Assembly: GCA_902575965.1 (NCBI GenBank)
Contig: CACGTM010000001.1
Span: 1-64,000, forward strand
Direction of reading: 5' to 3'
Length of the DNA stretch: 64,000 nucleotides
Origin: an uncultured Alphaproteobacteria bacterium
GTDB taxonomy: Bacteria; Pseudomonadota; Alphaproteobacteria; Rhodospirillales; Rhodospirillaceae
Shown here: in pieces, positions 17,591 through 62,209 of the stretch
Numbering within the stretch: position 1 is the stretch's first letter
Layout: each line of letters begins with the position of its first letter
Made by a program: the position numbers and the translations under genes
Notes under the pieces: model-generated
Told to the model about the DNA's origin: nothing
Databases searched by the model: none
What the model saw: the letters and a program-made list of their open reading frames with translations, nothing else

Positions 17591-18334
17591 CTAAAAGAAG
17601 TTTTTTCTTTTTTCATATTCTACCAATTCGTAAAAGGTTTGCATGTATCCAGTACAATATGCTTTCAAAAGAACATAATCTCCATCATTTGTTACCCAAG
17701 TGTGATATGGTGGATGAATATCTGTCCCCATATATTCATCGTCAGTATTTGTGCCATAACTAAAATGGTATGCATTAAATTTCCCTGCTTCTACCTCTAC
17801 AGTTTCTTCGCCATAGTACCTCATTTGTAATCCCTCTTTATGAAGTAGAATAGGTCCATCTGCACCGCGGTGGTGAAATGAACACATAAGATGCAAGTTA
17901 TTAGTATGCGTTCCAGGTCCTTTGGAAATTGGATAAAGGTGAGTATGCATTGCATCAGCCTGAATAGGGTGTGTGCCAAAGAAAGTGGGCTTTGAGTCTA
18001 AATCTAAAGTTTGAGATATGCGGCCTTCTCTAATTGTATAGCCCTCGCATTCGGCTTTATTCTCCGTGAATCGATACCATGTTGAACCAATAAATTCATC
18101 ATCAGTACTAATCTGCACAAATCCATAGGTAGGGTTCCAGTTTTTGTCGATAGTAGTTATAGAGTCTCGAAGAACACGGGGTGAGTTTTCATCAATTGAA
18201 CAATGTGCTCTTAAGGTTCTCGAGCCATCAACATTAATAGTATAAATAAATGTTTCTCCACCTCTTTCTTTATCCATCATTTCTTTCTTTTTTGATGTGT
18301 ATCTTATTCTTCCCCTTATTGTAAAATGCTCCAT
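17591..18334 (-). CDS. Uncharacterised 247-residue protein, paralogue of the gene at 47072
   Basis: I do not recognise a named family. The sequence is beta-rich with no signal peptide or membrane segment, and AGGAG precedes the ATG. It shares a common pattern with the 47072-47830 product: ITRG/IRGR-x-x-YTSKK near the N-terminus, DGSRT, GR(I/V)SQT, HRGA-GP, V-AG-F---HF, and the ending GYMQT-YELVEYE. The spacing is conserved from end to end, so the two are true paralogues. Its neighbour is an MmgE/PrpD gene, and an acyl-CoA synthetase is divergent. A lipocalin- or DUF3108-like barrel is possible but not shown. Confidence 0.75.
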   Translation of the reverse strand: MEHFTIRGRIRYTSKKKEMMDKERGGETFIYTINVDGSRTLRAHCSIDENSPRVLRDSITTIDKNWNPTYGFVQISTDDEFIGSTWYRFTENKAECEGYTIREGRISQTLDLDSKPTFFGTHPIQADAMHTHLYPISKGPGTHTNNLHLMCSFHHRGADGPILLHKEGLQMRYYGEETVEVEAGKFNAYHFSYGTNTDDEYMGTDIHPPYHTWVTNDGDYVLLKAYCTGYMQTFYELVEYEKRKNFF

Positions 18335-18445: not shown

Positions 18446-20083
18446 ATGAAAAATGGAATATACACAAAAGATTTGGATAAAAATAAGGCAAATTTTGAGC
18501 CTTTAAGTCCTGTTTCATTTTTAAAACGAGCTGCAGAGGCATACCCAAGGAGAACAGCAATAGTTTATGGTTCTTTAAGGTATTCCTATAATGAGTTTTA
18601 TGAAAGATGTCGTCTTCTTGCCTCAGCTTTATCTAAAATTAATATAAAAGAGGGTGATACGGTTGCAATTATAGCCCCAAATATTCCTGCACATCTTGAA
18701 GTACATTATGCGGTTCCAATGTTAGGGGCTGTTTTAAACTCAATAAATACAAGGTTAGATGCTGACACTATTTCATTTATTTTAAACCATGGAGAAGCAA
18801 AGGTACTTATTGTCGATCAAGAGTTCTCGGGCCTAATAAGAAACGCATTAAAAAAAGTAGAAAATAAAATTAAAATTATTGAGATTGAAGATTTAGCTGT
18901 TACAAAGGAAGTAGTTTTAAGCGAATTAAAATATGAAAGTTTTTTAAAGACAGGTAGTAAAGATTTTTATCCAGAAATATTAGTTGATGAATGGCAAGCA
19001 ATTGCATTGAGTTATACCTCTGGAACCACAGGAAATCCAAAAGGTGTTGTAACACATCATCGAGGTGCATATCTTAATGCTATAGGAAATATGATGGCTT
19101 GGGGAATGGCTTCTTTTCCAACTTACCTTTGGACTCTCCCTATGTTTCACTGCAATGGCTGGTGTTTTCCATGGACAGTTACTGCTATGACAGGGACACA
19201 TGTATGCTTAAGAAAAGTTGAAACAGAAGTTATCTTTAACTTAATTAGGAATGAAAATATTTCTCATTTCTGTGGTGCTCCTACGGTTTTAAATATGTTA
19301 GTTAATGCTCCAGAGCATGAAAAAATTAACCTGCCAAAATCAGTAAAGGTTATGACCGCCGGTGCAGCACCCCCACCCGCAGTAATTTCAAGTATTGAAA
19401 ACCTTGGAATAGATATTACTCATGCATATGGCTTAACTGAGGTTTACGGTCCATGTGTAGTTTGTTCTTGGCACGATGAGTGGGATGTTTTGCCTGAAGA
19501 TGATAGGGCAGCTTTAAAAGCAAGGCAGGGAGTGAGATACCATGTTGTTGAGGGGTTAGAGGTCATGGATCCAGAAAAAATGTTGTCAGTACCAAATGAT
19601 GGCGAAACCATTGGAGAGGTAATGTTTAGAGGAAATGTTGTTATGAAGGGATACCTCAAAAACAATGAAGCAACTAAAGAAGCTTTGAAAGATGGATGGT
19701 TTCATTCTGGTGATCTTGCTGTAAAACATCCCGATAATTATATAGAAATTCGTGACAGGTCTAAAGATATAATTATTTCCGGAGGTGAAAATATATCAAC
19801 TATTGAAATTGAAGGAATTTTATTTAAGCACCCCTCAGTACTTGAAGCCGCTGTAGTTGCAAAACATGATGACCACTGGGGGGAAACTCCATGCGCTTTT
19901 GTAACTTTGAAAGAAGGTGCAGAAGTTTCCGAAAAGGATTTAATTGAATTTTGTAAGAGTAATATGGCAAAGTTTAAGATACCAAAGACAATTGTATTTG
20001 GTAGTCTGCCTAAAACATCAACAGGAAAAATCCAGAAATTCATATTGAGAGAGCAGGCTCAAGGGTTAGAAGATAGTATTTAA
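18446..20083 (+). CDS. Acyl-CoA synthetase (AMP-forming)
   Basis: Activates a carboxylic acid to its CoA thioester through an acyl-adenylate. The P-loop-like YTSGTTGNPKG is at residues 190-200, AYGLTEVYGP near 330, the GWFHSGDLA hinge region near 410 and the catalytic Lys in LPKTSTGKIQKF near the C-terminus. It is 545 residues long. The N-terminal LSPVSFLKRAAEAYPRRTAI and CNGWCFPW segments resemble the short- and medium-chain acyl-CoA synthetase branch that also includes methylmercaptopropionate-CoA ligases. The substrate cannot be fixed from sequence. Confidence 0.9.
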   Translation: MKNGIYTKDLDKNKANFEPLSPVSFLKRAAEAYPRRTAIVYGSLRYSYNEFYERCRLLASALSKINIKEGDTVAIIAPNIPAHLEVHYAVPMLGAVLNSINTRLDADTISFILNHGEAKVLIVDQEFSGLIRNALKKVENKIKIIEIEDLAVTKEVVLSELKYESFLKTGSKDFYPEILVDEWQAIALSYTSGTTGNPKGVVTHHRGAYLNAIGNMMAWGMASFPTYLWTLPMFHCNGWCFPWTVTAMTGTHVCLRKVETEVIFNLIRNENISHFCGAPTVLNMLVNAPEHEKINLPKSVKVMTAGAAPPPAVISSIENLGIDITHAYGLTEVYGPCVVCSWHDEWDVLPEDDRAALKARQGVRYHVVEGLEVMDPEKMLSVPNDGETIGEVMFRGNVVMKGYLKNNEATKEALKDGWFHSGDLAVKHPDNYIEIRDRSKDIIISGGENISTIEIEGILFKHPSVLEAAVVAKHDDHWGETPCAFVTLKEGAEVSEKDLIEFCKSNMAKFKIPKTIVFGSLPKTSTGKIQKFILREQAQGLEDSI

Positions 20084-20098: not shown

Positions 20099-20881
20099 CT
20101 ATAAATCCCAGTTTGGTTTCCTTTTTTCTACGAAAGCTGAAATTCCTTCTATACAATCATTTTCGAGCATATTTTTTGTCATTACTTCACTGGCATATTC
20201 ATAGCTCTGGCTAATTGGCTTTTCTAGTTGTTCATAGAAAGCTTTCTTACCAATTTCAATGATTCGTTTTGGTTTCTTAGCAATAATATTTGCAAGTTTC
20301 TCAACCTCACAGTCTAAACTATTTTTTTCTACCATTGAGTTGATTAGCCCAAATTGCACAGCAGACTCAGCAGTAATATTCTCACCCGTAAGAAGCATTT
20401 CTAATGATTTCTTTCTTGGAACAACTCTGCTTAATGCAACTGAGGGAGTGGAACAGAATAGTCCAATATTGACTCCTGGGGTTGCAAAGATACTTTCCTT
20501 TGAGGCAATTGCCAGATCGCAAGTTGCAACGAGTTGGCATCCTGCTGCTGTTGCAATTCCATCAACCTTAGCGACAACAGGAATTCTCAATTTAATAATT
20601 TCAATCATCATTTCAGAGCACTTCTCAAAGACTTTTTTTGTGAATTCAGAATTATTTAAAGATTTTAGCTCTTTTAAATCATGCCCTGAGCAAAACGCCG
20701 GCCCTCTTCCGCTAAGTATTACTACTTTAATATCATTATTCTCATTAATATCTTTTATTTCTCTTATCATTAATTCTATTAATTCAAGAGATAAAGCGTT
20801 TCTGGCTTTTGGTCTATTTAATATTAAGTTAGATATGCCATTTTTATCTTCTCTTAATATCAATGGTTCTGTATTTTGCAT
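20099..20881 (-). CDS. Enoyl-CoA hydratase/isomerase family protein
   Basis: Crotonase-fold protein of 260 residues. The oxyanion-hole segments are visible as GRGPAFCSGHDLKEL near residue 60 and VDGIATAAGCQLVATCDLAIA near 105. The SGHDLKE form is typical of the ECHDC3-like branch, whose reaction is poorly defined. The two catalytic Glu residues of true enoyl-CoA hydratases are not evident at the usual positions. It is the last gene of the eleven-gene leftward run, three bases after the VOC gene. Confidence 0.88.
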   Translation of the reverse strand: MQNTEPLILREDKNGISNLILNRPKARNALSLELIELMIREIKDINENNDIKVVILSGRGPAFCSGHDLKELKSLNNSEFTKKVFEKCSEMMIEIIKLRIPVVAKVDGIATAAGCQLVATCDLAIASKESIFATPGVNIGLFCSTPSVALSRVVPRKKSLEMLLTGENITAESAVQFGLINSMVEKNSLDCEVEKLANIIAKKPKRIIEIGKKAFYEQLEKPISQSYEYASEVMTKNMLENDCIEGISAFVEKRKPNWDL

Positions 20882-20884
20882 AAA

Positions 20885-21871
20885 CTATCTTTTTTCTTCA
20901 ATTAGCTCTGTTAATTCCCCGCATGGTCCCAGAAAAACACCGGATCTTTTTCCTTCATAAACATTAACAAGCTTATAAATGAAATTAACATCCAAATTAT
21001 CAATGTTATCAACACTAAAGGTTGTCATGGCAATTCCTGGTGGAAGTTGACCCTTAACCCTTTTTCTTGGGCCTGTATTACTTTTGTACTCATCCAGCTC
21101 AATACTATTTCCCTTTTCTCTTAGACGCATGAGTCCAAGGTTAAATAACTCATTTTCAGGTAAGTTTTGTAATTGAGAAATAAGACCACCCTTTGCCTGA
21201 AACCTATACCCAGTTTTTAAATTTACATTGAATAGGTTTGCGTAAAATGACTCCATTTCATTAATGTTAATTCCTGCAAGTATCATAATAAAAATTCTAC
21301 CAATATCTGATTTTGGTATTGGAAGATTTGATTTAGAACGGTCCCCTGTTTCACATGTCAGGTAAATTACTTCCTCAGCAGGGCCTATGTATTGTGAAGC
21401 TCTAATTGATGAATTACCTCCCATTAGGTTTGCAGGTCCTCCAATGTGTCTAAATTCTGAATGAAGCAATTCAGAATGAATTTTATCAACATCATCGCAT
21501 ATTATTTCAATAGCATTCCAACCCCAAGAGTTCATTGCTTTATAGGAAGGTACTGGATCAATCTCTACTGCCCTAATGAAAACATCTTCTTTACTTTGAG
21601 GTCTAAGCAACACATAGGGTTTCCCAGAGCTTAATGGAGACCCCCATGACAATGCCATTTCATCTGGAACTATAGACTCTTCGACTAATTCGTATTTAAG
21701 CCATTTAGAATAGTAGTTTTTAAAAGTATTTACATTAGGTGCACCAACTGTAGCCATTTTTATCCGGCTTGCTGAAGGAGCTTTATCATTTGTTTTTGCA
21801 TTTAAAGCAACTGGAGCCATGGCTACAAAACCTCCAAAGCTATTAATAAATTTCTTTCTTGTAATCATCAT
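20885..21871 (-). CDS. Exported double-VOC-domain protein (paralogue 3)
   Basis: The 328-residue product begins with a Tat-like leader: TRKKFINSFGG, then a hydrophobic stretch ending near ALNA, although it has RK rather than the usual RR. Two vicinal-oxygen-chelate (glyoxalase/dioxygenase-fold) modules follow, about residues 35-170 and 185-325. Shared features with the genes at 22374 and 23299 are Y--WL-YE near the start, P(Y)VLL-P-S-EDV(F)IR, WGWNA(I)E-I, P-P---IGR-FI-IL, PPG---TTF-VDN and the GELTELIEE ending. The reaction is unknown. Confidence 0.8.
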   Translation of the reverse strand: MMITRKKFINSFGGFVAMAPVALNAKTNDKAPSASRIKMATVGAPNVNTFKNYYSKWLKYELVEESIVPDEMALSWGSPLSSGKPYVLLRPQSKEDVFIRAVEIDPVPSYKAMNSWGWNAIEIICDDVDKIHSELLHSEFRHIGGPANLMGGNSSIRASQYIGPAEEVIYLTCETGDRSKSNLPIPKSDIGRIFIMILAGININEMESFYANLFNVNLKTGYRFQAKGGLISQLQNLPENELFNLGLMRLREKGNSIELDEYKSNTGPRKRVKGQLPPGIAMTTFSVDNIDNLDVNFIYKLVNVYEGKRSGVFLGPCGELTELIEEKR

Positions 21872-21893
21872 TAAGTCCTAGAATATAATACAC

Positions 21894-22355
21894 TTAATTA
21901 TTAACTATAGCCCTTACATTAATTTCCATCTTTAATTCTGGGATTGCAAGCGCACTTACTCCGATGACCATTGAGACAGGTTTATGCCCTGTTGGAAAAA
22001 AATCACGAACATCTTGATAAACTTGCTCAGGGTTAACCTTATCAAGGTCTACAATATAGATTTGTATTTCTATGACATCTTTTCTTGTTGCTCCAGCTGC
22101 ATTTAAAGCCAGTTCAATATTTTCCCATGTTAGCTTTGACTGTGCCTCAAGAGTTTCAGGTATAAACCCATCTGGTCTTAGGCCGGCCTTTCCTCCTAAT
22201 AAAATTAACTTTCCTTGACCCTCAATAGTAACTACCTGTGAATAACCTACAGGCTGGTCCAATCCTTCAGGATTCCATCTTTTTATATTTACTTCAGCAC
22301 TTTTTATTGATGTAGTTGTCATTATTATACCTATGATAATTAGATTCTTAAGCAT
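21894..22355 (-). CDS. Exported RidA/YjgF-family protein
   Basis: A 153-residue Rid protein preceded by a Sec-type leader (residues 1-19, basic then hydrophobic, ending near IKSAE). Rid proteins are usually cytoplasmic imine deaminases. This copy has the family core (VTIEGQGKLILLGGK, ALNAAGATRKDVIEIQIYIVD, FPTGHKPVSMVIGVSALA). At the position of the catalytic Arg of classical RidA it reads PVSMV, so imine hydrolysis by the standard mechanism is unlikely. It sits between the VOC paralogues, which points to a shared, probably periplasmic, substrate. Confidence 0.85.
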   Translation of the reverse strand: MLKNLIIIGIIMTTTSIKSAEVNIKRWNPEGLDQPVGYSQVVTIEGQGKLILLGGKAGLRPDGFIPETLEAQSKLTWENIELALNAAGATRKDVIEIQIYIVDLDKVNPEQVYQDVRDFFPTGHKPVSMVIGVSALAIPELKMEINVRAIVNN

Positions 22356-22373
22356 TTTTACCTCTAAATAAAT

Positions 22374-23285
22374 TTATTCCTCAATAAGCTCTATTAGTTC
22401 CCCCGTATAACCTTTTGCTGTTCTTGATCTTCTTCCATTATAGACAATTGAATTACTTTCTATGATATCTCCCACAAAATCTAAATTTAAATCATTAAGG
22501 CTGTCTACTGTGAAGGTTGCAGTTGAACAACCTGGAGGAAGTTGCCCTTTGTTACAAGGTCTTTTTCCAAATACTCTATCGTAACCATCATATTCTATAA
22601 AATTTCCAAGTGAAGAGAGTGCCATAAAGCCCATATCGTATATATGTCCTTTTGGAAGACTTTGAGCATTTGCTATAACTTCAATAGTAGTTTGCATGTC
22701 CTCTTCTCTTTCAAGTCCAAATTTTGAACAATAAAACTCCTGTACTTCATGTATTCCATTTGCTGCTAAAATCACTATGAATGGTCTTCCAACAAAAGCC
22801 CCAGGTTTTGGTAGTAAACTGTCTGGAGCTTTAACTTTGTCGCATGTGAGATATAAGATTTCTTTTGCTGGCCCTTCAACCTGCATTGCATGTATAAAAT
22901 CTAATTCGCCTCCAAGGCTCGCTGGGGGTCCAATTATTTTAAATGGACTTTCTTTTAATTTCTCATAAAGCTCATAAACATCTTCAATAATTAATTCAAA
23001 TGCATTCCATCCTAAAGATGTCATTGGTTTGTAATTTTTTACTTCGTCAATTTTACAAACACGAATAAATACATCTTCCTCACTAGAAGGCTGAAGTAAT
23101 AGATAGGGTTTATTTTTCATTAGGGGAGTGTTCCATGAGTTAGCAAGTGACTGCTCTACAAAACCCCTCTCGCAAACTTTGTAATCTAACCATTTAGTAT
23201 ACCACTCCTCTACTAGTTCAATATTGTTTGCTGCTATGGTATTGACTTTAATTCTTTTTAATAGCGGAGGGTTGATTTTATTCAT
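22374..23285 (-). CDS. Cytoplasmic double-VOC-domain protein (paralogue 2)
   Basis: A 303-residue protein with two VOC modules and the same landmarks as its two paralogues: WY-KWLDY, PYLLLQPSSEEDVFIR, LGWNAFELI, RPFIVILA, QLPPGCSTATFTVDSL and the ending GELIELIEE. Longer in-frame starts exist upstream, but they run into the preceding gene. The ATG used here has AGGA eight bases before it. Unlike the other two copies it has no leader peptide. It starts 13 bases after the upstream VOC stop. Confidence 0.8.
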   Translation of the reverse strand: MNKINPPLLKRIKVNTIAANNIELVEEWYTKWLDYKVCERGFVEQSLANSWNTPLMKNKPYLLLQPSSEEDVFIRVCKIDEVKNYKPMTSLGWNAFELIIEDVYELYEKLKESPFKIIGPPASLGGELDFIHAMQVEGPAKEILYLTCDKVKAPDSLLPKPGAFVGRPFIVILAANGIHEVQEFYCSKFGLEREEDMQTTIEVIANAQSLPKGHIYDMGFMALSSLGNFIEYDGYDRVFGKRPCNKGQLPPGCSTATFTVDSLNDLNLDFVGDIIESNSIVYNGRRSRTAKGYTGELIELIEE

Positions 23286-23298
23286 TAAAGTTATCCTG

Positions 23299-24282
23299 TT
23301 ATTTATTTTCCTCAATGAGTTCAAGAAGTTCACCTGCTGGTCCGACAACCGTAGCAGATCGTGACCCATATGAATTAATTGGTCTTGTAATATATTTTAG
23401 ATCTAAGTCATCGAGATTTTTTACGGTAATCGAGGTAATGGAAATACCAGGAGGAAGTTCATCAATATTCTGCATTCTTGGCCCCGTGTTATTACCATAA
23501 CCATCCAGCTCTAGGAGATTGCCATGTTCAGATAATGATAGAGTTGTAAGGGGCCTTTCACTATCAAGAGGTATTCCTTGTGCTTTATTGATGAGAGCTA
23601 TTGGTGAATTATTAATTTTTTTCTTTTGCATATTAAATTTCTCAGAATACCAATCTTGAAGTTTAAAAATATCGGGTCCCGCAACAACCATAATAAAAAC
23701 TCTTCCAATCTTTGATTTTGGCCTTGGTAGAGGGGATTTTCTATAGCTTCCAGTTTCTGTTGTGAAATATATAACATCTTCTTCTTTGCCTTGAACTTGC
23801 ATAGCTCTAATGCTTGGATAGTTTTTTAGGGCATCAGGTTCTCCAAGTATCTTAAAGGGAGAATTTTTAAAGTCTTCGTTAAGTCCATCTGGGTCTTCAC
23901 AAATTATTTCAATAGCATTCCATCCCCATGTAGTATTTGCAATATATTTTGGAGGTTGGTTTATTTTGATGAGGCGAATGTAAACGTCCTCTCCACTTGC
24001 TGGTTGCATAACTACATATGGCTGGCCCCCAGTTTTTTCTGCTCCCCAAGATAAAGCTAATTCAACTGGTACGGTTCCTCTTTCAATAGTTTCGTAGTAC
24101 AACCACTCATTATAGAGTTCTTCAGATTCTTCTAAATTCACAACACTAACAGTTGCCATTTTAAATCGAAGTAGTTTAGACAAGTTTTTTTCCTTAGAAT
24201 TAACAATGTTAGTCAAAAATAAACTTACTATAAAGAATAATAAACCAATACTTTTTTTCGAAGGGCAATAGATTTTATACAT
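23299..24282 (-). CDS. Exported double-VOC-domain protein (paralogue 1)
   Basis: The 327-residue product begins with a clear Sec signal (residues about 8-29, with a hydrophobic GLLFFIVSLFLTNIV core). Two VOC modules follow with the family landmarks seen in its paralogues: YNEWLYYE, QPYVVMQPASGEDVYIR, WGWNAIEII, KIGRVFIMVVAG, ELPPGISITSITV, ending GELLELIEE. Whether the His/Glu metal ligands of VOC dioxygenases are kept in both modules is not clear by eye. It lies between the second PuuE-like hydrolase and the cytoplasmic VOC gene. Confidence 0.8.
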   Translation of the reverse strand: MYKIYCPSKKSIGLLFFIVSLFLTNIVNSKEKNLSKLLRFKMATVSVVNLEESEELYNEWLYYETIERGTVPVELALSWGAEKTGGQPYVVMQPASGEDVYIRLIKINQPPKYIANTTWGWNAIEIICEDPDGLNEDFKNSPFKILGEPDALKNYPSIRAMQVQGKEEDVIYFTTETGSYRKSPLPRPKSKIGRVFIMVVAGPDIFKLQDWYSEKFNMQKKKINNSPIALINKAQGIPLDSERPLTTLSLSEHGNLLELDGYGNNTGPRMQNIDELPPGISITSITVKNLDDLDLKYITRPINSYGSRSATVVGPAGELLELIEENK

Positions 24283-24295
24283 TTCAGTCTCTTGG

Positions 24296-25216
24296 TTATT
24301 GTTTTTTTATTTCATTTAGTATTTCTATACCTGTAGCGTTCCAAGCAAATTCTCTATTATTTATCCATTCAAAAAGCTTATCTAGGTATTTTATTCGGTA
24401 ATGAAGCCCCATTATATATGGTGTTAGAATTATAGATAATACTCTTCCTCCGTATTGTTCGGACTCCTCATAAAGGGTAGTAAAAGCATCTTGAACTTGT
24501 TCCACAAATTCTTCTTCAGTTTGCTTTTTATCCATTATTATAGTTCTATCCCAAATTTCGCTTCCATGGGGCATAGCCCATATATTTCCAGCCTCACTAT
24601 TCATCTTATAGGGCATATCGTCATTGCACCAATCACACGTGTATTCAATACCATTTGACGCAAGATGCTTGCATGTATTCCAGCTTTCAGATTTAGCTGG
24701 GGACCACCAACCCAATACTTTCTGGTTTGAAATTTTTCTGAGTGTGTCCAAGCTTTCTTTAATTAAATCAGATTCTTTTTTATCATCCATTCCTCCATAA
24801 TGGATTTTGCCCATATCGACACCATGTCCAATAATTTCGTCATTTCTATCATTTATTTTTTTTATGATATAAGGATACCTCTTGGCAACAGAAGAATTTA
24901 CGGCTGCTGAGGCCTTAAGATTATGTTTTGATAAACATTTCCAAATTCTGCTTATGCCAACTCTATTTCCATAGTCACGGGTTGTGAAATGTCTAAGGTC
25001 TGGATATGGAGTTACCATTCCTCCTGGAGCTTTAAAAGGTTCTGATGGTTGATTTAGTGGAAAAAACTCTAAAGAGTAACTTATCCAAACAGCAACTCTA
25101 GCATTATTTGGCCAAATTATTTTTTTTCTTTTTTGTAAGATCGACCAGTCAAAAAAGTTATGGTCCATTCCATACATACGCTTTGGGTATTCTAAATATT
25201 CTTTTTCTAATGTCAT
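24296..25216 (-). CDS. Polysaccharide-deacetylase-fold hydrolase, PuuE-like (copy A)
   Basis: A 306-residue NodB/PuuE-fold protein without a signal peptide, so not a surface polysaccharide enzyme. The usual metal-binding Asp pair after strand 1 reads SYSLEFFPLN here. Other landmarks match allantoinase PuuE and cyclic-imide hydrolase relatives: RDYGNRVGISRIWKCL, AAVNSSVAKRYP, EIIGHGVDMGKIHYGG and LGWWSPAKSESWNT. A metal-independent amidohydrolase acting on a cyclic amide is plausible. It is a diverged tandem paralogue of the next gene upstream (25226-26137). Confidence 0.82.
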   Translation of the reverse strand: MTLEKEYLEYPKRMYGMDHNFFDWSILQKRKKIIWPNNARVAVWISYSLEFFPLNQPSEPFKAPGGMVTPYPDLRHFTTRDYGNRVGISRIWKCLSKHNLKASAAVNSSVAKRYPYIIKKINDRNDEIIGHGVDMGKIHYGGMDDKKESDLIKESLDTLRKISNQKVLGWWSPAKSESWNTCKHLASNGIEYTCDWCNDDMPYKMNSEAGNIWAMPHGSEIWDRTIIMDKKQTEEEFVEQVQDAFTTLYEESEQYGGRVLSIILTPYIMGLHYRIKYLDKLFEWINNREFAWNATGIEILNEIKKQ

Positions 25217-25225
25217 ATTTAACTC

Positions 25226-26137
25226 TTAATTTTGTTTTTTAATACTTTTTAAACAATCGTCGTAATAATTTTTATAATAATATTCTGCAATTTCACGACC
25301 CGTAGTAATCCAAACATCTTCCTTGCTATGAGATGTTATATAATCCAATGCTTCTTCAAAGCCTCTAATCCTATGAGGGTGACCTACTGCGTATGCATGA
25401 AGAGGGATGCACATTACAGTTCCGCATTCATCTCCTTCTTTGAGTAATTGATCAAATTGATCTTTTATCATTTGAGCATATCGTCGAGGAGTTCCAAGAT
25501 AAGAGTTGTAAACAATTATATCATTAATTTCCAATGAGTAAGGCATTGAGATAAGTTTCCCTTTTGATACATTTAAAGGCTGAGGTGTATCATCTTGAAA
25601 CAAATCACACGTGTAAAGAAATTCATACTCTGCCAGCAAATCAATAGTTTTTTCGGTGTGGGTTAATGCAGGTGCAAGATATCCAGCAAGTTTTTGCCCC
25701 GTAGCATTAAGAACTGATTCAATGCTATCTTCTAAAATAGCCCTTTCCTGTTGTTCGTTCATTTCATATGAATAACGAGTGTTGTATATGCCATGTGAAA
25801 AGAATTCCCATTTTCTATCTTTTGCTTCCTTTATTAGCTCTGGGTGATGATCTATCAGGGCTATGTTAAGTGATACTGACCCTCTTACGTTGTATTTATC
25901 CATAACCTCCATCATGCGCCAGTGTCCAGCTCTATTTCCATAGTCTCTACTTGAGTTTAATAAAACATCAGGGTGTATTCTTGGCCAAGCTTTTCTGAGT
26001 GGATTTACCGGTGGGTTAATTTCATAAAACTCAATATTAGGAGCTACCCAGAAGGCTACCTTTGCCCCGTTAGGCCATCTAATTTTGGGCCTACCTTCAT
26101 AAGCCCAGTAGTCGTAAAGTTTAAGGTCCTCTTTCAC
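25226..26137 (-). CDS. Polysaccharide-deacetylase-fold hydrolase, PuuE-like (copy B)
   Basis: A 303-residue paralogue of copy A. Shared points are WPNGAKVAFWVAPNIEFYEIN (NIEF replaces the NodB Asp pair), SSRDYGNRAGHWRMMEVMD, SLNIALIDHHPE, EFFSHGIYNTRYSYEM and KLAGYLAPALTHTEKT. There is no leader peptide. The HG motif and the YGNR/HWR segment are typical of the PuuE branch rather than chitin or peptidoglycan deacetylases. It starts 11 bases after the isochorismatase-type gene, so ring opening and side-chain amide hydrolysis may be consecutive steps. Confidence 0.82.
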   Translation of the reverse strand: MKEDLKLYDYWAYEGRPKIRWPNGAKVAFWVAPNIEFYEINPPVNPLRKAWPRIHPDVLLNSSRDYGNRAGHWRMMEVMDKYNVRGSVSLNIALIDHHPELIKEAKDRKWEFFSHGIYNTRYSYEMNEQQERAILEDSIESVLNATGQKLAGYLAPALTHTEKTIDLLAEYEFLYTCDLFQDDTPQPLNVSKGKLISMPYSLEINDIIVYNSYLGTPRRYAQMIKDQFDQLLKEGDECGTVMCIPLHAYAVGHPHRIRGFEEALDYITSHSKEDVWITTGREIAEYYYKNYYDDCLKSIKKQN

Positions 26138-26148
26138 TTTTTACTCCA

Positions 26149-26811
26149 TTAATTTTTACTTCTTAATAATTCCTTAATATAACTCACAGATTCTATGTCG
26201 GCGTATTTTAATGCAAGATCAGTTAGGTTTGCAAAATGATAGCTTTCATGTTTATCTGCAACACATTCTTCAATAACAATTGTTCTAAAGCTTCTTGACA
26301 AACTGTCTACAGCAGTGGCCCTTACACAGCCGGATGTGGAGCCACCCGTTAATAGTAATGTATCGACTTCATAATGTTTTAGGAGCATTTCAATATGGGT
26401 ACCAAAGAAAACGGATGGCATTCTCTTGTCTACAATATGATCTTGTTTTCTTATGTCTAACCTTTCATCAAGCTCAGATCTGGTAGATCCAAATTTGATG
26501 TTCTGTAAACTATCCTCTGTATCTGTTCTAGTCCCCCAGACACCAGCATCATCTCCAGAATCATGATAGGCAACATATGTCCAAATTACAGGCCAGTTTT
26601 TATTTCTAACTAAACCTGCTATTTCATTAACATAATCTATTTGTTTTGGATCGGTTTCGTATGCTGTTTTGAACAAGTCTTGTCTTGTGTAGGCTTTTTG
26701 AAGGTCGATGTTTATTAGAGCTGCCTTGTTACCAAAACCAAATTTTTTTCTTGCTGGGTTAGATTTCACTTCTTTGTAGATTTGTCGAGCCGTTTTGTTA
26801 GATAGTTCCAT
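26149..26811 (-). CDS. Isochorismatase-family cysteine amidohydrolase
   Basis: A 220-residue cysteine hydrolase with the Asp-Lys-Cys triad visible: Asp36 in NIDLQKAY, Lys129 in VDKRMPS and Cys162 in GSTSGCVRAT, where the cis-peptide precedes the nucleophile. The N-terminal extension before strand 1 and the TSGCVRA form resemble N-carbamoylsarcosine amidohydrolase and maleamate amidohydrolase rather than true isochorismatase. Its place between PuuE-like hydrolases and a hydratase/lyase set suits hydrolysis of a half-amide or carbamoyl compound. The substrate is inferred only. Confidence 0.88.
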   Translation of the reverse strand: MELSNKTARQIYKEVKSNPARKKFGFGNKAALINIDLQKAYTRQDLFKTAYETDPKQIDYVNEIAGLVRNKNWPVIWTYVAYHDSGDDAGVWGTRTDTEDSLQNIKFGSTRSELDERLDIRKQDHIVDKRMPSVFFGTHIEMLLKHYEVDTLLLTGGSTSGCVRATAVDSLSRSFRTIVIEECVADKHESYHFANLTDLALKYADIESVSYIKELLRSKN

Positions 26812-26884
26812 TTTTCATTTACCTCTTCAGTATAATAGTTACCTTAGGAAATATTTAGAGCATATTTTCATTTCAAATTTATGT

Positions 26885-27754
26885 TTATTCTTCGTATTGT
26901 TTTACTTTGTCTAAGAGTTCATTGGTTCCCAATAAATCATTTAGCTGTCCAAAGTCTAACATCCTATCTTGAACTTTATCAGTAGATCCATGTTTTTTTA
27001 AATTATTTAGATAATACTGAGCTGCAAATGCAAAGGTCCTAATCATAGACCCTGGAAAGATAATAAAATTAAAGCCTAATTTTTCTAATTGTTGAGAATT
27101 TAATTTAGGGGTTTTACCTCCTTCAACCATGTTGGCTAATAAAGATACTTTCTTGCAAAACTTTTTTCCAATATCTTCCATCTGCTTAATTGACCTGGGT
27201 GCTTCAATAAATAGCATATCTGCTCCTGCTTCCAAATATGCTTCAGCTCTTGATATGGCAGCTTCAAATCCTTCAACTGCAATTGCATCAGTCCTTGCAA
27301 CTATTATTGTATTATCATTTTCAATAGTATCTTTTGCTGCTTTAATTTTTCCAACCATTTGGCCTTGGGTAATTATATCCTTCCCATCAAGATGGCCACA
27401 TCTTTTTGGAATTGTTTGATCTTCTATTTGAATTCCAGATGCTCCAGCGTTTTCAAGAAGCCTTACAGTTCTTTGAACGTTTAGTGCATTACCAAAACCA
27501 GTATCTGCGTCTACAACTAATGGAATTAATAGTCTTTCACGTATTCGTGAAATTGTATTTGCAACTTCTGTTAGTGTTGTAAGTCCAACATCTGACTTGC
27601 CAAGCTGAGAGTATGAAATGCTTGCTCCACTCACGTACGCACATTCAAAGCCTGCATTTTGCACCATTAAACCAGTAAATCCGTCGTATATACCTGGAGC
27701 GATATTAATACTATTATTCTTTAACAAATCTCTTAGTTTTTTAGCATGATTCAC
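26885..27754 (-). CDS. Isocitrate lyase/PEP mutase superfamily lyase
   Basis: A 289-residue member close to 2-methylisocitrate and 2,3-dimethylmalate lyases. The Mg-binding VDADTGFGNA (residues 81-90) and the catalytic KRCGH (117-121, with Cys119) are intact. This argues for a C-C lyase rather than PEP mutase or oxaloacetate decarboxylase, which lack this cysteine. It lies two bases past the LeuD-type gene. That context favours cleavage of a substituted malate to pyruvate plus a short acid over the methylcitrate cycle, since no prpC is nearby. Confidence 0.9.
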   Translation of the reverse strand: MNHAKKLRDLLKNNSINIAPGIYDGFTGLMVQNAGFECAYVSGASISYSQLGKSDVGLTTLTEVANTISRIRERLLIPLVVDADTGFGNALNVQRTVRLLENAGASGIQIEDQTIPKRCGHLDGKDIITQGQMVGKIKAAKDTIENDNTIIVARTDAIAVEGFEAAISRAEAYLEAGADMLFIEAPRSIKQMEDIGKKFCKKVSLLANMVEGGKTPKLNSQQLEKLGFNFIIFPGSMIRTFAFAAQYYLNNLKKHGSTDKVQDRMLDFGQLNDLLGTNELLDKVKQYEE

Positions 27755-27755
27755 T

Positions 27756-28277
27756 TTATTCTTTCCTAACTTTTATTTCACCGTCATCAATTTTCTTTCT
27801 AAGAAATGGCATCAACCCCCCTGAAGAAATCATATCCATAAGGTGTTCTGGTATGGGGCTGACATTAATATGTATTTTAGTGGTAAGATTTTTTAATTCT
27901 CCTTTAACGGGATCAATTAAAAGCTCGTCTTTTGGTTTTATTTCACTAGTTGAGTTGTACACAAGAGCAGGTAAGCCAAAATTAAGAGCATTCCGATAAA
28001 AAATACGAGCATAAGATTTGGCAATGATTGCTCCAACTTTCAATTCCTTAAATGCAAGTGCTGCTTGTTCTCTGGCAGATCCAACCCCAAAATTTCTTCC
28101 AGCAACAACTATGTCTCCTGGTTTAACTTCTTTTGCAAATAATGGATCTATTGCTTCCAAACAATGAGAGGCCATAACATCCATGGACTCCTTAAAGTAA
28201 ATTCCTGGAGCCATTACATCTGAATTTATTTCATCCCCAAATACCCATGCCTTACCCCTTATTATTTTTTCTTTCAT
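27756..28277 (-). CDS. Aconitase-family hydratase, small (LeuD-like) subunit
   Basis: A 173-residue swivelling domain of the LeuCD type, with GDIVVAGRNFGVGSAREQAALA near residue 53 and YRNALNFGLPAL near 92. Length and form match the compact small subunits of type-2 isopropylmalate, homoaconitate, maleate and dimethylmaleate hydratases rather than the roughly 200-residue leucine-pathway LeuD. Its start overlaps the large-subunit stop by four bases, and the lyase starts one base after it. Confidence 0.92.
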   Translation of the reverse strand: MKEKIIRGKAWVFGDEINSDVMAPGIYFKESMDVMASHCLEAIDPLFAKEVKPGDIVVAGRNFGVGSAREQAALAFKELKVGAIIAKSYARIFYRNALNFGLPALVYNSTSEIKPKDELLIDPVKGELKNLTTKIHINVSPIPEHLMDMISSGGLMPFLRKKIDDGEIKVRKE

Positions 28278-29542
28278 ATTAGTTCTCTTGGATCAATAAT
28301 CTTACCAGCTACTGCGCTTGCTGCTACTGTATATGGTGATGCGAGGTATACAAATGAGTCTTTTGAGCCCATCCTGCCTTGAAAGTTTCGATTTGTAGAA
28401 GATATACATACTTCTTTTTCTGCAATAACACCGGCGCCAAGACCTGCACAAGCGCCACATCCGGAAGGTAGTATTATACCTCCTGCATTTGTTATTATCT
28501 CTAATGTTCCATCTGATGCTGCTTGAGCCATAATTTTCTTTGAGGAGGGTGCTACCAATAAACGCGTTTTTGGAGATACGCTTTTACCTTTCAATACTCT
28601 CGCTACCATATGTAAATCATTGAGCTTGCCTCCAACACAAGCTCCAATATATGCCTGATCAATCTTAATATTTTCTTGCTCAAATTGCTCAGCAGATGCA
28701 GAGTTTGATGGCTTATGAGGTGCAGCAACTTGCGGCAATAAATTCTCAGCATTAAAGTTATGTGTTTCACAAAAAGATGCATCATCATCACTTTTCCAAC
28801 TTAAAGCATTCGTTTGTGGTTCAACTCCAGCTAATCTTATTGCCTCGAGTGTTGTTTTATCAGGTGCAATAAGCCCTGTCTCTGCTCCCAATTCCGCTGC
28901 CATATTTGTTAATACCATTCTTTCTTGCATTGACATGTTTTTGACCGTACTTCCGCCAAATTCAACTGCTTTAAAGGCATTTTCCATTCCAAGTTTTTTC
29001 GCTAGAAACAACATAATATCTTTTGCTGTTACTCCTCTAGAAAACGAACCTTCCCAGTTGACCTTTATTGTATCCATTACAACTGACCAAATTTTTCCAG
29101 TTACCACCACACCAGTCATTTCAATTGCACCAAAGCCAGCCATGTAACAGCCGAATGCACCTCCCATTGTAGAATGACTATCACCGCCACAGCAGAATAG
29201 CCCAGGCTGGAGATGTCCATTTTCTGCCATTATCACATGGCATATACCTTCCATGTCATAAAAGTGCTTAATATTATAATTCTTTACAAAATCTCTTGTT
29301 AATTTAAGAATAGCAGCACTTTGAGGATCTGCAGCTGGTACAAAGTGGTCTGCAACTACAATCACTTTTTCAGGGTCAAAAACTCCTACTCCTAAATTTT
29401 TTAATCTTGGCCAAATTTTTCTCGGTCCGCCCGAGTCAAGTATCATCGCTATGTCTACATCACATGTAACGATTTCTCCAACTTTAACCTCAGATTTACC
29501 TGATGCTCTTGATAGTATTTTTTGGATAAGAGTTTGGCTCAT
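28274..29542 (-). CDS. Aconitase-family hydratase, large (LeuC-like) subunit
   Basis: A 422-residue iron-sulfur hydro-lyase subunit. Three cysteines that would bind the [4Fe-4S] cluster are visible: one in YIGACVGGKLNDL near residue 310 and two in LPSGCGACAGLG near 362. HFVPAADP and GGDSHSTMGGAFG are catalytic-site segments. At about 420 residues it is the short type-2 LeuC/HacA form, whose members also act on maleate, citraconate and 2,3-dimethylmaleate. The lyase next door makes one of these more likely than leucine synthesis. First gene of the leftward run. Confidence 0.92.
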   Translation of the reverse strand: MSQTLIQKILSRASGKSEVKVGEIVTCDVDIAMILDSGGPRKIWPRLKNLGVGVFDPEKVIVVADHFVPAADPQSAAILKLTRDFVKNYNIKHFYDMEGICHVIMAENGHLQPGLFCCGGDSHSTMGGAFGCYMAGFGAIEMTGVVVTGKIWSVVMDTIKVNWEGSFSRGVTAKDIMLFLAKKLGMENAFKAVEFGGSTVKNMSMQERMVLTNMAAELGAETGLIAPDKTTLEAIRLAGVEPQTNALSWKSDDDASFCETHNFNAENLLPQVAAPHKPSNSASAEQFEQENIKIDQAYIGACVGGKLNDLHMVARVLKGKSVSPKTRLLVAPSSKKIMAQAASDGTLEIITNAGGIILPSGCGACAGLGAGVIAEKEVCISSTNRNFQGRMGSKDSFVYLASPYTVAASAVAGKIIDPRELI

Positions 29543-29613
29543 TTTTTTTAATTTTTCTTTTTATATACCCAAAGGGCTATTGAAAGGTTGATTTAATATC
29601 GATAAAATTAACA

Positions 29614-29643
29614 TTGACCACAAATATTTTGTGAAAATACAAT
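29614..29643 (+). promoter_or_regulatory. Sigma-70-type promoter for the methyltransferase-gcdH-YciI operon
   Basis: TTGACC (29614-29619), an 18-base spacer and TACAAT (29638-29643) make a good -35/-10 pair, with the ATG 29 bases further on. The spacer is filled by a palindrome, which argues that the promoter is repressed or otherwise controlled. Confidence 0.6.
29619..29633. promoter_or_regulatory. Palindromic operator candidate inside the promoter spacer
   Basis: CACAAA-TAT-TTTGTG is a perfect 6-bp inverted repeat with a three-base centre between the -35 and -10 elements. It also lies 76 bases before the start of the divergent hydratase-to-VOC run, so one regulator could control both directions. 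No regulator gene is adjacent. Confidence 0.5.
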
Positions 29644-29672
29644 AAATCAAGAAATGACTTTAAGAAATAGTT

Positions 29673-30911
29673 ATGACAAATAAAATTCCTCTTCCACCAC
29701 CATATAACCGGATATATCGTCATAAGGTCCTTCCAGAGGTGAACCATGACGAAAATTCTAGAATGAACTTTATAGCTAACTTAAATATTCATGTTGGAAA
29801 TGTGCTTTTTCCTGGGGTTTCTCGTGCATACAAGAATGAGGTTGAGCCAGACTTTGTAAAAAAATTTGGAAGAAAACCAAAAACATCTATAGAAGTAAGA
29901 AATATCATAAAAGATAATAAAATCTATCAGGCATGGTCAGCAATTAGAAGAAACACTATGGAAATGAGGCACCAGATAGGCCGTTCAATAGTTTATAGGC
30001 AAATTGACAAGCTTATTGATCAGTCAAAAAAGTTAAGCAAAACTAATCCAGAAAATTTACAACTTGATAAAAATGTTAAGATACCAAACTATTTAAGTGC
30101 AATTGATAACCATTGCATGCCTGGTAGTTATTATACCGAGGTTACAGAAAAAGATATTTCAGCTCCTGCAAATTATGAGGCTGGACATTTTACAACCGTT
30201 GCCGGAGGCACTGGACCAAAAAGCGACATTATTGGTAGGGCGATGGCAAATTGGATAAAGGAAAACAATAGTAAGCTTAATCCAAAGGTTATTTACGATA
30301 TTGGCGCGGGAGCCGGCATTAATACTCTCCCTATTGCACAGGCGTTTCCAAATGCAAAGGTGTTTGCGATTGATGTTGCAGCGCCCATGCTTAGATATGG
30401 ACATGCTAGAGCGGTTGATATGGGAGTTGATAATGTGATTTTTAAACAGTGTGATTTTGAGTTTTCTGATTTCAAAGAAAATACTGCAGATCTAATAATT
30501 TCAGCAATGTTTTTTCATGAGATTTCTGCTAAATCGATGAGAAATATTTTTCGCAATTCATTAAGGCTACTTAAACCTGGTAAGTTAATGATACACATGG
30601 AACAACCAAATTTTGATGAAGATACGGAAGCTTTTGAAAAATTTGTTAGAGACTGGGATGCTTGGTACAACGGAGAGCCTTATTGGGCTAAGCTTCATAG
30701 CTTAAACATAGTGGAAGAGATGCTGCAAGTTGGCTTTGATAAAGATAAGGTCTTTGAAACTTCTCAGCAAATCGATCGACATGATGAAAGTTACCCAAGC
30801 TGGTCTGGTCATTTTAGTCGCCATGCTCATGAGGCAAAGATGAGGGCAGATAAAATTAAATCTAACCCAAAAAATAATGGTGGAATATATATGTTTGGTG
30901 CATATAAATAA
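29673..30911 (+). CDS. SAM-dependent methyltransferase with a conserved N-terminal extension (copy 1)
   Basis: A 412-residue protein whose C-terminal half is a class-I methyltransferase: VIYDIGAGAGINTLPIA near residue 207, VFAIDVAAPMLRYGHARA as motif II, and an LRLLKPGKLMIH post-motif. The first 200 residues have no fold I recognise, but the paralogue at 36409-37593 shares them: GRxPKS/T-x-EVR or EIR, YQxAxA, EM-W/RH, and H(C/H)MPG(S/G)Y. It starts the gcdH operon and diverges from the hydratase run. The acceptor substrate is unknown. Confidence 0.82.
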   Translation: MTNKIPLPPPYNRIYRHKVLPEVNHDENSRMNFIANLNIHVGNVLFPGVSRAYKNEVEPDFVKKFGRKPKTSIEVRNIIKDNKIYQAWSAIRRNTMEMRHQIGRSIVYRQIDKLIDQSKKLSKTNPENLQLDKNVKIPNYLSAIDNHCMPGSYYTEVTEKDISAPANYEAGHFTTVAGGTGPKSDIIGRAMANWIKENNSKLNPKVIYDIGAGAGINTLPIAQAFPNAKVFAIDVAAPMLRYGHARAVDMGVDNVIFKQCDFEFSDFKENTADLIISAMFFHEISAKSMRNIFRNSLRLLKPGKLMIHMEQPNFDEDTEAFEKFVRDWDAWYNGEPYWAKLHSLNIVEEMLQVGFDKDKVFETSQQIDRHDESYPSWSGHFSRHAHEAKMRADKIKSNPKNNGGIYMFGAYK

Positions 30912-30946: not shown

Positions 30947-32161
30947 ATGAAATCAAAAAAAGAAAAAGAAGACGATTATTCAACTTCATGGGGTACATTT
31001 TCTTGGAAAGATCCTTTTAACATTTATGATGATCTCACTAGTGAAGAGCGGCTTGTTCAGGAAACCGCTAAAAATTTTTCATCTGAGTTTCTTTTGCCAA
31101 AAGTAATTAAATCATTTAGAGAAGAAAAATTCGATACAAGTATTTACCCACATATGGGCTCTTTGGGTCTATTAGGTGTTAATGCACCCGTTAAGTATGG
31201 TGGTTCAGATTTAGGTCATGTTGCTTATGGTCTTGTAGCAAGAGAGATAGAAAAAATAGATTCTGGCTATCGATCGATGCTAAGTGTCCAGTCTTCTCTG
31301 GTTATTTATCCAATTGCGGCTTATGGGTCTGAATATCAGAGAAAAAAATACCTTCCTGGTCTTATAAATGGTGATTTAGTAGGTTGTTTTGGTTTGACTG
31401 AACCAGACTCAGGTTCAGATCCCGGAAGCATGTTAACAAAGGCCAGGAAAACAAATAGTGGATACGTTTTAAATGGGGTTAAGACTTGGATTTCAAATTC
31501 CCCTATCGCAGATATATTTGTAGTTTGGGCTAAAATGGAAGATGGAAAGATTCGAGGGTTTCTCATTGAAAAAGGTTCGAAAGGACTATCTGCTCCTAAA
31601 ATTGAAGGAAAGTTATCATTAAGAACATCACAGACAGGGCAAATAGTTTTAGATGAAGTTGAAGTTGACCAAAATTCTATTTTACCAAATGTTGAAGGTT
31701 TAAAAGGACCTTTTGGATGTCTAAATAAAGCAAGATATGGCATTTCCTGGGGTGCATTGGGCGCTGCTGAAGATTGTTGGCATATATCAAGAAATTATGC
31801 ATTAGAGAGAAAACAGTTTGGAAAACCTTTAGCCCAGACACAGCTGATTCAAAAAAAACTTGTTGATATGCAGACACAAATATTTATGGGTTATTTGGCT
31901 TCCTATAAAGTTGGTAGAGCAATTGATCAGGGAAAATGTGCTCCAGAGCAGATTTCAATAGTTAAAAGAAATAATGCTGGAGTAGCGCTTGAGATTGCAA
32001 GGCATGCGAGGGACATTCTTGGAGGAAATGGAATCCAGGAAGACTATCATGTAATGAGACATATGATTAACTTGGAAACTGTAAATACTTACGAGGGAAC
32101 ACATGATATTCATGCCCTAATTCTTGGAAGAGCACAAACAGGATTACAAGCTTTTTTTTAG
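30947..32161 (+). CDS. gcdH: Glutaryl-CoA dehydrogenase
   Basis: Oxidises and decarboxylates glutaryl-CoA to crotonyl-CoA in lysine, tryptophan and aromatic catabolism. The 404-residue protein follows GcdH throughout: [73 protein letters not shown] and the catalytic Glu383 in NTYEGTHD. The SGYRS/SVQSS and GPFGCLN segments separate it from ordinary acyl-CoA dehydrogenases. Glutaconyl-CoA-producing relatives are a minor alternative. Confidence 0.94.
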
Positions 32162-32169
32162 GAAGATAA

Positions 32170-32511
32170 ATGAAATTTGCTTTTATATGCCTTGATGATG
32201 GAAATCAGGAAGAGAAAAGAAGTAAACTTTTGATAGAGCACCTTGAATATATTGAAAGTGTGTTAGATAAAGTGGTTATTGCTGGAGCTTGTCCTGTTAG
32301 TGAGAAAGATTTTGCTAAAGGTTCCCAGGGGTCTATTTTAGTTTACGAGGCAGAGACAAGGGAAAAAGCAATGTCCCTATTTGAGGGCGATCCATACGTG
32401 AAAAATAATATTTGGAAGGATGTAAAAATACTTCCTTGGAATCCAGTTGCAGGAAAATTAATAGGTGGTAAGACTTGGGAAATTAAAGATGGAAAACTTA
32501 AGAGGTCATAA
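32170..32511 (+). CDS. YciI-like protein
   Basis: A 113-residue ferredoxin-like protein of the YciI/YCII family, with the His-free start FAFICLDDG, the GSILVYEAETREKAMSLFEGDPYVKNNIWKDVKILPWNPV core and the typical DPY/W pattern. YciI proteins are small putative hydrolases or dehalogenase-like enzymes of uncertain role. It follows gcdH by eight bases and converges on the double hydrolase gene with a four-base gap. Confidence 0.82.
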   Translation: MKFAFICLDDGNQEEKRSKLLIEHLEYIESVLDKVVIAGACPVSEKDFAKGSQGSILVYEAETREKAMSLFEGDPYVKNNIWKDVKILPWNPVAGKLIGGKTWEIKDGKLKRS

Positions 32512-55191: not shown

Positions 55192-55202
55192 TCACTTTAT
55201 CC

Positions 55203-56384: not shown

Positions 56385-56440
56385 TAAAAAAACCTTTTAG
56401 AATTTATTTTTAAAACTTTTCAATCATATAAATTTAAGAA

Positions 56441-56959: not shown

Positions 56960-56970
56960 ATTGATCTCCT

Positions 56971-57843: not shown

Positions 57844-57845
57844 TG

Positions 57846-58679: not shown

Positions 58680-58694
58680 TCTAACCTCAATAGT

Positions 58695-62204: not shown

Positions 62205-62209
62205 AATTT

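Follow-up and report, generated by a model that had tools for sequence, protein, structure and literature searches.

Which compound is broken down by an operon that joins relatives of cyclic imide hydrolases to a hydratase and a carbon-carbon lyase? The question is raised by a locus in a stretch of 64,000 nucleotides (the window; positions 1 to 64,000 of the forward strand of contig CACGTM010000001.1, assembly GCA_902575965.1) from an uncultured marine alphaproteobacterium of the Rhodospirillaceae, whose genome sequence comprises 1.37 Mb and is 58% complete. A preliminary description had suggested that eleven genes of the window degrade a cyclic imide or alkylmaleimide. The sequence comparisons reported here show that the operon is real, conserved and chemically coherent, and its substrate is predicted: the operon would catabolise a cyclic imide of the substituted maleimide type, most likely hematinic acid. 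Taken as a whole, this explanation falls slightly short of an even chance. A generic imide route is probable, and hematinic acid itself, a maleimide carrying a methyl and a propionate group, is proposed tentatively as the substrate.

Layout of the operon

According to the list of open reading frames (ORFs) of the window, the operon is a minus-strand run of eleven ORFs from 29542 down to 20099. The intergenic distances are, in order, -4, 1, 73, 11, 9, 13, -71, 18, 22 and 3 bases, and these coordinates bear out the earlier claim of eleven genes on a single strand with gaps of at most 73 bases. The -71 overlap, between VOC-A and VOC-B, vanishes when VOC-B starts at the internal ATG 23285 instead of the listed 23369. 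The start of VOC-B is probably 23285, which leaves the protein without a signal-like N-terminus. Three conserved neighbours diverge from the operon across the gap 29543-29672. The operon and these neighbours are as follows.

28274..29542, minus strand: hydratase large subunit, LeuC/HacA-like, short form, 422 amino acids (hacA_fam TIGR01343)
27756..28277, minus strand: hydratase small subunit, LeuD/DmdB-like (TIGR02087)
26885..27754, minus strand: phosphoenolpyruvate (PEP)-mutase-superfamily C-C lyase with KRCGH motif (PF13714, own clade)
26149..26811, minus strand: isochorismatase-fold amidohydrolase, predicted half-amidase (PF00857)
25226..26137, minus strand: PuuE1, PuuE/imidase-like NodB hydrolase, predicted cyclic imide hydrolase (PF01522; matches to PuuE and 3qbu in the PDB)
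24296..25216, minus strand: PuuE2, second PuuE/imidase-like hydrolase (PF01522; 30% identity to PuuE1)
23299..24282, minus strand: VOC-A, double-VOC protein, hydrophobic N-terminus (40% identity to VOC-B)
22374..23285 (ORF listed from 23369), minus strand: VOC-B, double-VOC protein, no signal-like N-terminus (AlphaFold2 model, VOC matches in the PDB)
21894..22355, minus strand: Rid/YjgF-like protein, signal-like N-terminus, RidA arginine absent (PF01042)
20885..21871, minus strand: VOC-C, double-VOC protein, signal-like N-terminus (42% identity to VOC-B)
20099..20881, minus strand: crotonase (enoyl-CoA hydratase; PRK08139, 369.6 versus cut-off 313)
29673..30911, plus strand: MeTr1, SAM (S-adenosylmethionine) methyltransferase-like, divergent conserved neighbour
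30947..32161, plus strand: glutaryl-coenzyme A (CoA) dehydrogenase, GcdH, divergent conserved neighbour (match to human GCDH 1sir)
32170..32511, plus strand: YciI-like protein, conserved neighbour (PF03795)

Profile searches upheld the families assigned earlier to the hydratase subunits, the PEP-mutase-superfamily lyase, the isochorismatase-fold enzyme, the two NodB/PuuE-like hydrolases, the Rid-like protein and the crotonase.

Conservation of the operon and its core

Gene content and co-conservation could be observed directly in a set of 61 genomes (numbered G, their contigs C), the source genome included, and in a collection of named loci (numbered L). An orthologue of the amidase (67-100% identity, paralogues reaching 38%) was found in 10 of the 61 genomes. 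The VOC family occurs in 11, namely the same 10 and G034, in which a contig of 8.4 kb bears PuuE1 and PuuE2 along with VOC, Rid and crotonase genes. Because the VOC family tracks the amidase orthologue across the whole set, the association is beyond chance, and the 11 carriers represent six genera of one family and not independent events. On 20 kb maps the carriers of these six genera show the same gene order, with some losses and with one to six VOC copies; in the genus mate G001 the cluster is split across two contigs. The closest of the named loci is L049, from the metagenome-assembled genome (MAG) MED667 (labelled Rhodospirillaceae), whose PuuE1 is 95% identical. The nine gene kinds of the operon are all present in L050-L056, L059 and L060. 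The expectation that the eleven genes travel together is supported by synteny in relatives, where the same order and all nine gene kinds recur.

Eighty named loci were recruited with PuuE1, and in 59 of them PuuE1 is at least 58% identical. Among these 59, the amidase (at least 55% identity) lies within 400 bp of PuuE1 in 55, and PuuE2 does so in 52. The lyase (at least 40%) was found in 20, LeuC (at least 40%) in 16, VOC in 19, and GcdH (at least 50%) in 14 of the 59 loci and in 14 of the 20 that carry the lyase. The remaining 21 of the 80 have no amidase, lyase or VOC at those identity levels. Several loci end at contig ends, some named loci are apparently the same contigs as genomes of the 61-genome set, and MAG labels such as Marinimicrobia or Cytophagales may reflect binning errors. 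Many ORFs in the high-GC loci are antisense artefacts; recurrence and tblastn were used instead.

A locus labelled Acidimicrobiales, L070, shows the same gene order, LeuC-LeuD-lyase-amidase-PuuE1-PuuE2, and one labelled Hydrogenophaga, L104, has lyase-amidase-PuuE1-PuuE2. Distant VOC relatives (27-33% identity) lie close to amidase and PuuE genes in L093 and L094. The operon also occurs in MAGs with Lake Baikal labels, and amidase, PuuE1 and PuuE2 occur together in cultured genera such as Hyphomonas (Hyphomonas sp. L-53-1-40 and H. beringensis), Parvularcula (P. lutaonensis) and Eilatimonas (E. milleporae). These three genes form a core that is distributed more widely than the whole operon.

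Imidase-like hydrolases and amidase

PuuE1 and PuuE2 score 34.7 and 32.7 bits with PF01522 (gathering score 23.1) and belong to the NodB/PuuE-like superfamily. Neither reaches the cut-off of 424.6 for the allantoinase PuuE (TIGR03212; 128.7 bits for PuuE1, 96.3 for PuuE2). PuuE1 also matches 3qbu at 4.4e-11, a remote relation. In an excerpt of PMC9304392, 3qbu is called related to imidases, and HxnM is presented there as a PuuE-related imidase with genetic support. These similarities make PuuE1 a relative of PuuE and, by way of 3qbu, of the imidase group around HxnM.

The amidase matches PF00857 at 99.4 bits (threshold 27). Asp36, Lys129 and Cys162, which we take to be the catalytic triad of isochorismatase-fold amidases, are kept in 57 of 57 rows. 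For this and the other residue counts (hydratase, lyase, GcdH and Rid), identical rows and rows under identity or length limits were removed beforehand, and the catalytic residues were then read directly from the alignments. The structures 3uao, presumably NicF, and 3ot4 match the amidase at 1.2e-20 and are not its best match.

Hydratase and lyase

The large subunit scores 444.1 bits with TIGR01343 (cut-off 385.7) and the small subunit 169.4 with TIGR02087 (cut-off 108.95). Three cysteines of the large subunit, presumably the ligands of an Fe-S cluster, are conserved in 19, 19 and 18 of the 19 rows. By its profiles, the enzyme is a short-form hydro-lyase of the LeuCD/HacAB/DmdAB family. It misses the LeuC equivalog cut-offs (TIGR02083, 384.3 versus 610.65; TIGR00170, 215.7 versus 560.25) and that of the homoaconitase model HacA_Meth (402.1 versus 550), and the source genome encodes two further LeuC/LeuD pairs (C4 and C34). 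The separation of the hydratase from leucine synthesis, whose failure would have counted against the preliminary description, holds on these scores and not on a tree. In the small subunit, Lys29 aligns with the Arg of the YLRT motif in homoaconitase 2pkp, and this loop position holds Lys in 17 of the 19 short-form rows; L070 has Val and L103 has Arg. According to part of PMC7308503, this loop governs substrate preference.

The lyase falls below the PrpB cut-off (TIGR02317, 298.4 versus 354.4). A tree was built from 27 rows from 12 genomes, script-filtered from 30 placed loci among 43 lyase matches, to which two core-linked lyases and four PDB stretches were added; the dimethylmalate lyase/oxaloacetate hydrolase references 3fa3 and 3lye, which both match the lyase, stand outside this tree. 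Seven cluster lyases form one clade with 99/98 support, apart from PrpB, MICL and the petal death protein; grouping with the methylcitrate cycle would have counted against the preliminary description. A larger clade (99/100) places the cluster lyases together with the L104 lyase and with paralogues from their own genomes, and the L070 lyase falls outside the cluster clade. An Arg at the PrpB-type position, which we take to be the ligand of an extra carboxylate, is present in 24 of 24 rows and absent from the petal death protein.

A related clade of the cluster lyase was also seen elsewhere in carriers, at G000:C19, G002:C8, G007:C32, G018:C40 and G024:C1 (L182, L190, L189, L181 and L183).

Glutaryl-CoA dehydrogenase

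The dehydrogenase that diverges from the operon matches human GCDH (1sir) over its full length with an E value of 2.4e-157; its best PDB match is 4w9u, listed as an acyl-CoA dehydrogenase. It scores 214.9 with the NCBIfam model NF045552 and misses the cut-off of 470. All 16 cluster copies compared have Arg109, Ser110 and Glu383. The Arg-Ser pair presumably binds the distal (gamma-)carboxylate, and the Glu is presumably catalytic. By the direct match and these residues, the enzyme is a glutaryl-CoA dehydrogenase. When 37 genomes were searched for GcdH at E<=1e-120, 27 had exactly one match; seven carriers are among these, and in all seven the sole GcdH sits at the cluster. This refines the predicted substrate to a maleimide with a propionate arm, as in hematinic acid. 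The lyase Arg together with the homoaconitase-type subfamily of the hydratase (by its TIGR01343 score) likewise fits an acid with methyl and propionate groups.

Proposed route

We infer the individual reactions, and the substrate, as follows. A PuuE-like hydrolase would open the imide to a half-amide, and the isochorismatase-fold enzyme would remove its nitrogen as ammonia, leaving a 2,3-disubstituted maleate. Hydration by the LeuCD-like enzyme would follow, and the lyase would split the resulting malate into pyruvate and a carboxylic acid. The diacid of hematinic acid would be the methyl homologue of homoaconitate, its hydrated form would be a homologue of 2-methylisocitrate, and the cleavage products would be pyruvate and glutarate. 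Glutarate would be converted to its CoA ester by a ligase or transferase, and glutaryl-CoA to crotonyl-CoA by the divergent GcdH, after which the crotonase of the operon would lead to central metabolism. The two PuuE copies may serve two imides.

In the excerpted text of PMC7318184, hematinic acid is described as forming from chlorophyll a in vitro, and occurrences of it and of maleimides in senescent leaves and lake sediments are cited; maleimides themselves were not detected in that study, according to the same text. Portions of PMC8131568 and PMC11442138 state that ChuS of Escherichia coli yields hematinic acid from haem. As another candidate pathway, riboflavin catabolism was rejected, since the enzymes named in an excerpt of PMC12746152 differ.

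Alternative endings of the core

Hyphomonas-type loci pair the core with a different LeuC and LeuD; this LeuC is 31-34% identical. Across 39 loci compared, an HMGL-like lyase was found in 13, a CaiB-type CoA-transferase in 7 and GntR regulators in 18; in a partly different set among these 39, TonB receptors recur in 10, a nitrilase in 13, an FAD-linked oxidase in 9 and DUFa, a beta-barrel protein, in 6. L099 carries a gene of the Amdase family, which we take to be the family of maleate isomerases, and L095 a relative of it. We read the different hydration and cleavage enzymes beside the same amidase-PuuE core as the same chemistry reached twice. Two unrelated lyase endings next to one core support a route from imide through half-amide, unsaturated diacid and hydroxy acid to C-C cleavage.

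Two other features of these loci were rejected as hints. The best NCBIfam model of the TonB receptors is of the siderophore type (L073, 166.8 versus cut-off 223.5), and the best model of the L099 CaiB protein is a succinate-glutarate CoA-transferase (256.8 versus cut-off 750).

VOC and Rid proteins

VOC-A, VOC-B and VOC-C have no Pfam match at E<=0.001. The AlphaFold2 model of VOC-B has a predicted local distance difference test score (pLDDT) of 96.1, and by Z it is closest to 1zsw, 3oaj, 4huz and maize glyoxalase I (Z near 22, 245-251 residues, 8-13% identity). For 4huz, presumably of the PcpA type, Z is 22.4 over 250 residues with a root-mean-square deviation of 2.8. By this model VOC-B has the double-VOC fold, and so do VOC-A and VOC-C through their identity to it. 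Three double-VOC paralogues, one of them cytoplasmic, had been described before; the VOC-B model and the restarted VOC-B agree with this. Close to the N-terminus, 33 of 48 VOC rows have a hydrophobic stretch, in many cases preceded by RR or RK, and 15 have none, as called by a simple pattern and not by a signal-peptide predictor.

The metal site of type I extradiol dioxygenases consists of two His and one Glu. Among the 48 VOC rows no alignment column has 50% His, and Glu97 and Glu299 are invariant. A role of the VOCs as ring-cleaving extradiol dioxygenases is therefore not supported. The Rid protein was likewise rejected as an imine deaminase, because the active-site arginine, which we take to be Arg105 of E. 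coli RidA, is missing; in all 16 rows the aligned residue is a leucine, L136.

The VOC and Rid proteins might, as a guess, bind or pre-process the substrate outside the cytoplasm. An extended version would make the island a full salvage route for oxidised tetrapyrroles, in which the exported double-VOC paralogues, with their usual metal His lost, and the exported Rid-like protein would, outside the cytoplasm, bind or split mono- and dipyrrolic remnants of chlorophyll and haem. Hematinic acid would then be converted by the operon to glutaryl-CoA, pyruvate and ammonia. This version is highly doubtful.

A VOC protein with a lipoprotein-like start was found in 7 of the 39 loci compared (L079:5398-6492, L073, L083-L085, L090 and L126). 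It is a distant glyoxalase-family protein near a TonB receptor and the core, and the same seven loci also carry a DUF1330 protein. A second lineage may thus have acquired VOC proteins of this kind beside the core.

Other neighbouring genes

Three further genes lie beyond the crotonase end of the operon.

16170..17582, minus strand: MmgE/PrpD-family protein, neighbour in 4 of 9 compared regions
17591..18334, minus strand: DUFa, beta-barrel protein, neighbour also in Hyphomonas-type loci
18446..20083, plus strand: acyl-CoA ligase, PRK08162 subfamily, neighbour in 5 of 9 regions

A malonyl-CoA-synthase-like ligase also occurs near the cluster in 5 of the 9 regions. Genes for a ferredoxin reductase recur around it in 6 of the 9, those for an FAD-linked oxidase in 7 and those for an FAD monooxygenase in 5, and Rieske-type genes are present in L036 and L037. 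The MmgE/PrpD protein scores 44.6 versus a cut-off of 950 with the one PrpD model listed.

DUFa has a second copy in the window at 47072-47830; its AlphaFold2 model has a pLDDT of 88.1, and the nearest PDB fold is the DUF1849 beta-barrel 6ntr (E 9.8e-07). A third PuuE-like gene, at 56971-57927, lies inside a run at 53797-59366 with genes that by eye resemble those for MaoC (56441), an acyl-CoA dehydrogenase (55203), a PaaK-like ligase (53797) and an SDR (57846). Relatives of its PuuE, MaoC-like and SDR-like proteins, 54-58% identical, are found in L103, which has the amidase-PuuE core. By eye, the genes at 60891-62713 resemble those for the large and small subunits of a TRAP transporter, with relatives (57% and 44%) in the core-bearing L096; they are a possible uptake system.

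Weighing the explanations

Several observations weigh against the hematinic acid route. The activation of glutarate has no assigned gene. Heme oxygenase (PF01126; 7 of 61 genomes), HemS (PF05171; 8 of 61) and PaO (PF08417; 0 of 61) were each found in 0 of the 11 carriers, some of which are incomplete (G000 58%, G034 66%, G001 81% complete). The imide would thus have to be scavenged, or the substrate differs. A route of the carriers' own from haem or chlorophyll to the imide is so far not supported. GcdH also serves lysine and tryptophan breakdown, and no copy was seen near the core in the Hyphomonas-type loci, in L104 or in L070, of which 12.7 kb were compared. At the clusters of G003 and G025, LeuCD and Rid are absent, and in G003 another short LeuC adjoins a lyase at C11. 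The gammaproteobacterial loci L075-L077, L080, L081, L087, L088 and L092 have the core without hydratase or either lyase in the sequence compared, and given these eight loci the core alone may act, for example for nitrogen. The lyase Arg is shared by 4iqd, named a CPEP mutase. The small-subunit Lys fits a tricarboxylate substrate but was set aside as proof of one because most ordinary long LeuDs carry the same aligned Lys; L070 has its Val there. The VOC copies, Rid, methyltransferase, YciI and FAD-linked oxidases are left unexplained.

The closest rival keeps the route and changes the substrate to a dialkyl or monoalkyl maleimide (methylethyl-, methylvinyl-, dimethylmaleimide or citraconimide), which would give pyruvate and butyrate, propionate or acetate, with GcdH adjoining for lysine and tryptophan breakdown. 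It draws on the same core genes, the acyl-CoA ligase at 18446 and the crotonase could take butyrate, and both the Val of L070 and the GcdH-free surroundings of the core in L070 and the Hyphomonas-type loci suit it. This substrate is nevertheless rather unlikely: it leaves the sole GcdH at the cluster in seven of seven carriers unexplained, and the lyase has the PrpB-type Arg that the petal death protein lacks. Of the earlier imide or alkylmaleimide chain, the coherent enzyme order and the co-conservation stand, whereas a dialkylmaleimide does not account for the co-conserved GcdH. Another N-heterocycle, of the pyridine, pyrimidine or hydantoin type, could reach the pathway through a cyclic imide or maleamate after ring opening by VOCs or by Rieske or FAD oxygenases. 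The recurrent redox genes near the cluster and the Amdase-family genes point this way, and aerobic nicotinate breakdown passes through maleamate. The VOCs, however, lack the usual dioxygenase metal site, the oxygenases lie outside the spreading core, and plain maleate would presumably need no PrpB-type lyase, which makes such a substrate improbable. A variant methylcitrate-type cycle is the least probable by far. There, MmgE/PrpD, the aconitase-like hydratase and the PrpB-like lyase would act on a methylated tricarboxylate from a synthase elsewhere, with the amidase and PuuE as accessories. The MmgE/PrpD gene at 16170 and the shared operon of an aconitase-family hydratase and a PrpB-superfamily lyase agree with it, but no citrate synthase type is among the eleven genes, the lyase lies outside PrpB and MICL, MmgE is kept in under half of the regions and scores far below the PrpD model, and the part that spreads is amidase and PuuE, not hydratase and lyase. 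Hematinic acid remains the preferred substrate.

Comparison with known systems

Some 10^12 kg of chlorophyll are formed and broken down each year, and its small oxidation products include hematinic acid, according to an excerpt of PMC7318184. If the prediction is true, the operon would be a bacterial pathway using hematinic acid or alkylmaleimides, in marine alphaproteobacteria and in Lake Baikal-labelled MAGs; searches of open-licence PMC papers turned up no such pathway. Should the substrate be another one, what remains is a three-gene module that is widespread and has two alternative endings, together with a VOC family so far unstudied.

Cyclic imide metabolism by an imidase and a half-amidase is known from Blastobacter and Pseudomonas putida YZ-26. 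It likewise runs from imide through half-amide to dicarboxylate; here, in contrast, the half-amidase has an isochorismatase fold, two imidase-like genes are present, and a hydratase-lyase-GcdH tail stands in the same locus. An excerpt of PMC9304392 gives the YZ-26 imidase as an HxnM homologue. The HxnM-HxnN pair of the nicotinate pathway of Aspergillus nidulans, as described there, also places an amide hydrolase after a PuuE-related cyclic imidase, but in a eukaryote, on a six-membered hydroxyglutarimide and with hydroxyglutarate as product. The combination of an imide module, a LeuCD-lyase tail, GcdH and a VOC family did not turn up in searches of open-licence PMC papers.

The tail of the anaerobic nicotinate pathway of Eubacterium barkeri consists of DmdAB and 2,3-dimethylmalate lyase. 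It resembles the operon in its LeuCD-like dimethylmaleate hydratase and its PEP-mutase-superfamily lyase giving pyruvate, whereas its diacid comes from 2-methyleneglutarate with no imide, and PuuE or isochorismatase-fold steps are absent. NicF is a maleamate amidohydrolase and HbzIJ a maleate hydratase; they share with the operon the isochorismatase-fold amidase and the LeuCD-like hydratase, respectively, and differ in handling unsubstituted maleate, in their products malate or fumarate and in having no lyase. Imide-to-half-amide metabolism and a LeuCD-lyase tail are each already known, and it is their combination with GcdH and the VOC family that appears to be new.

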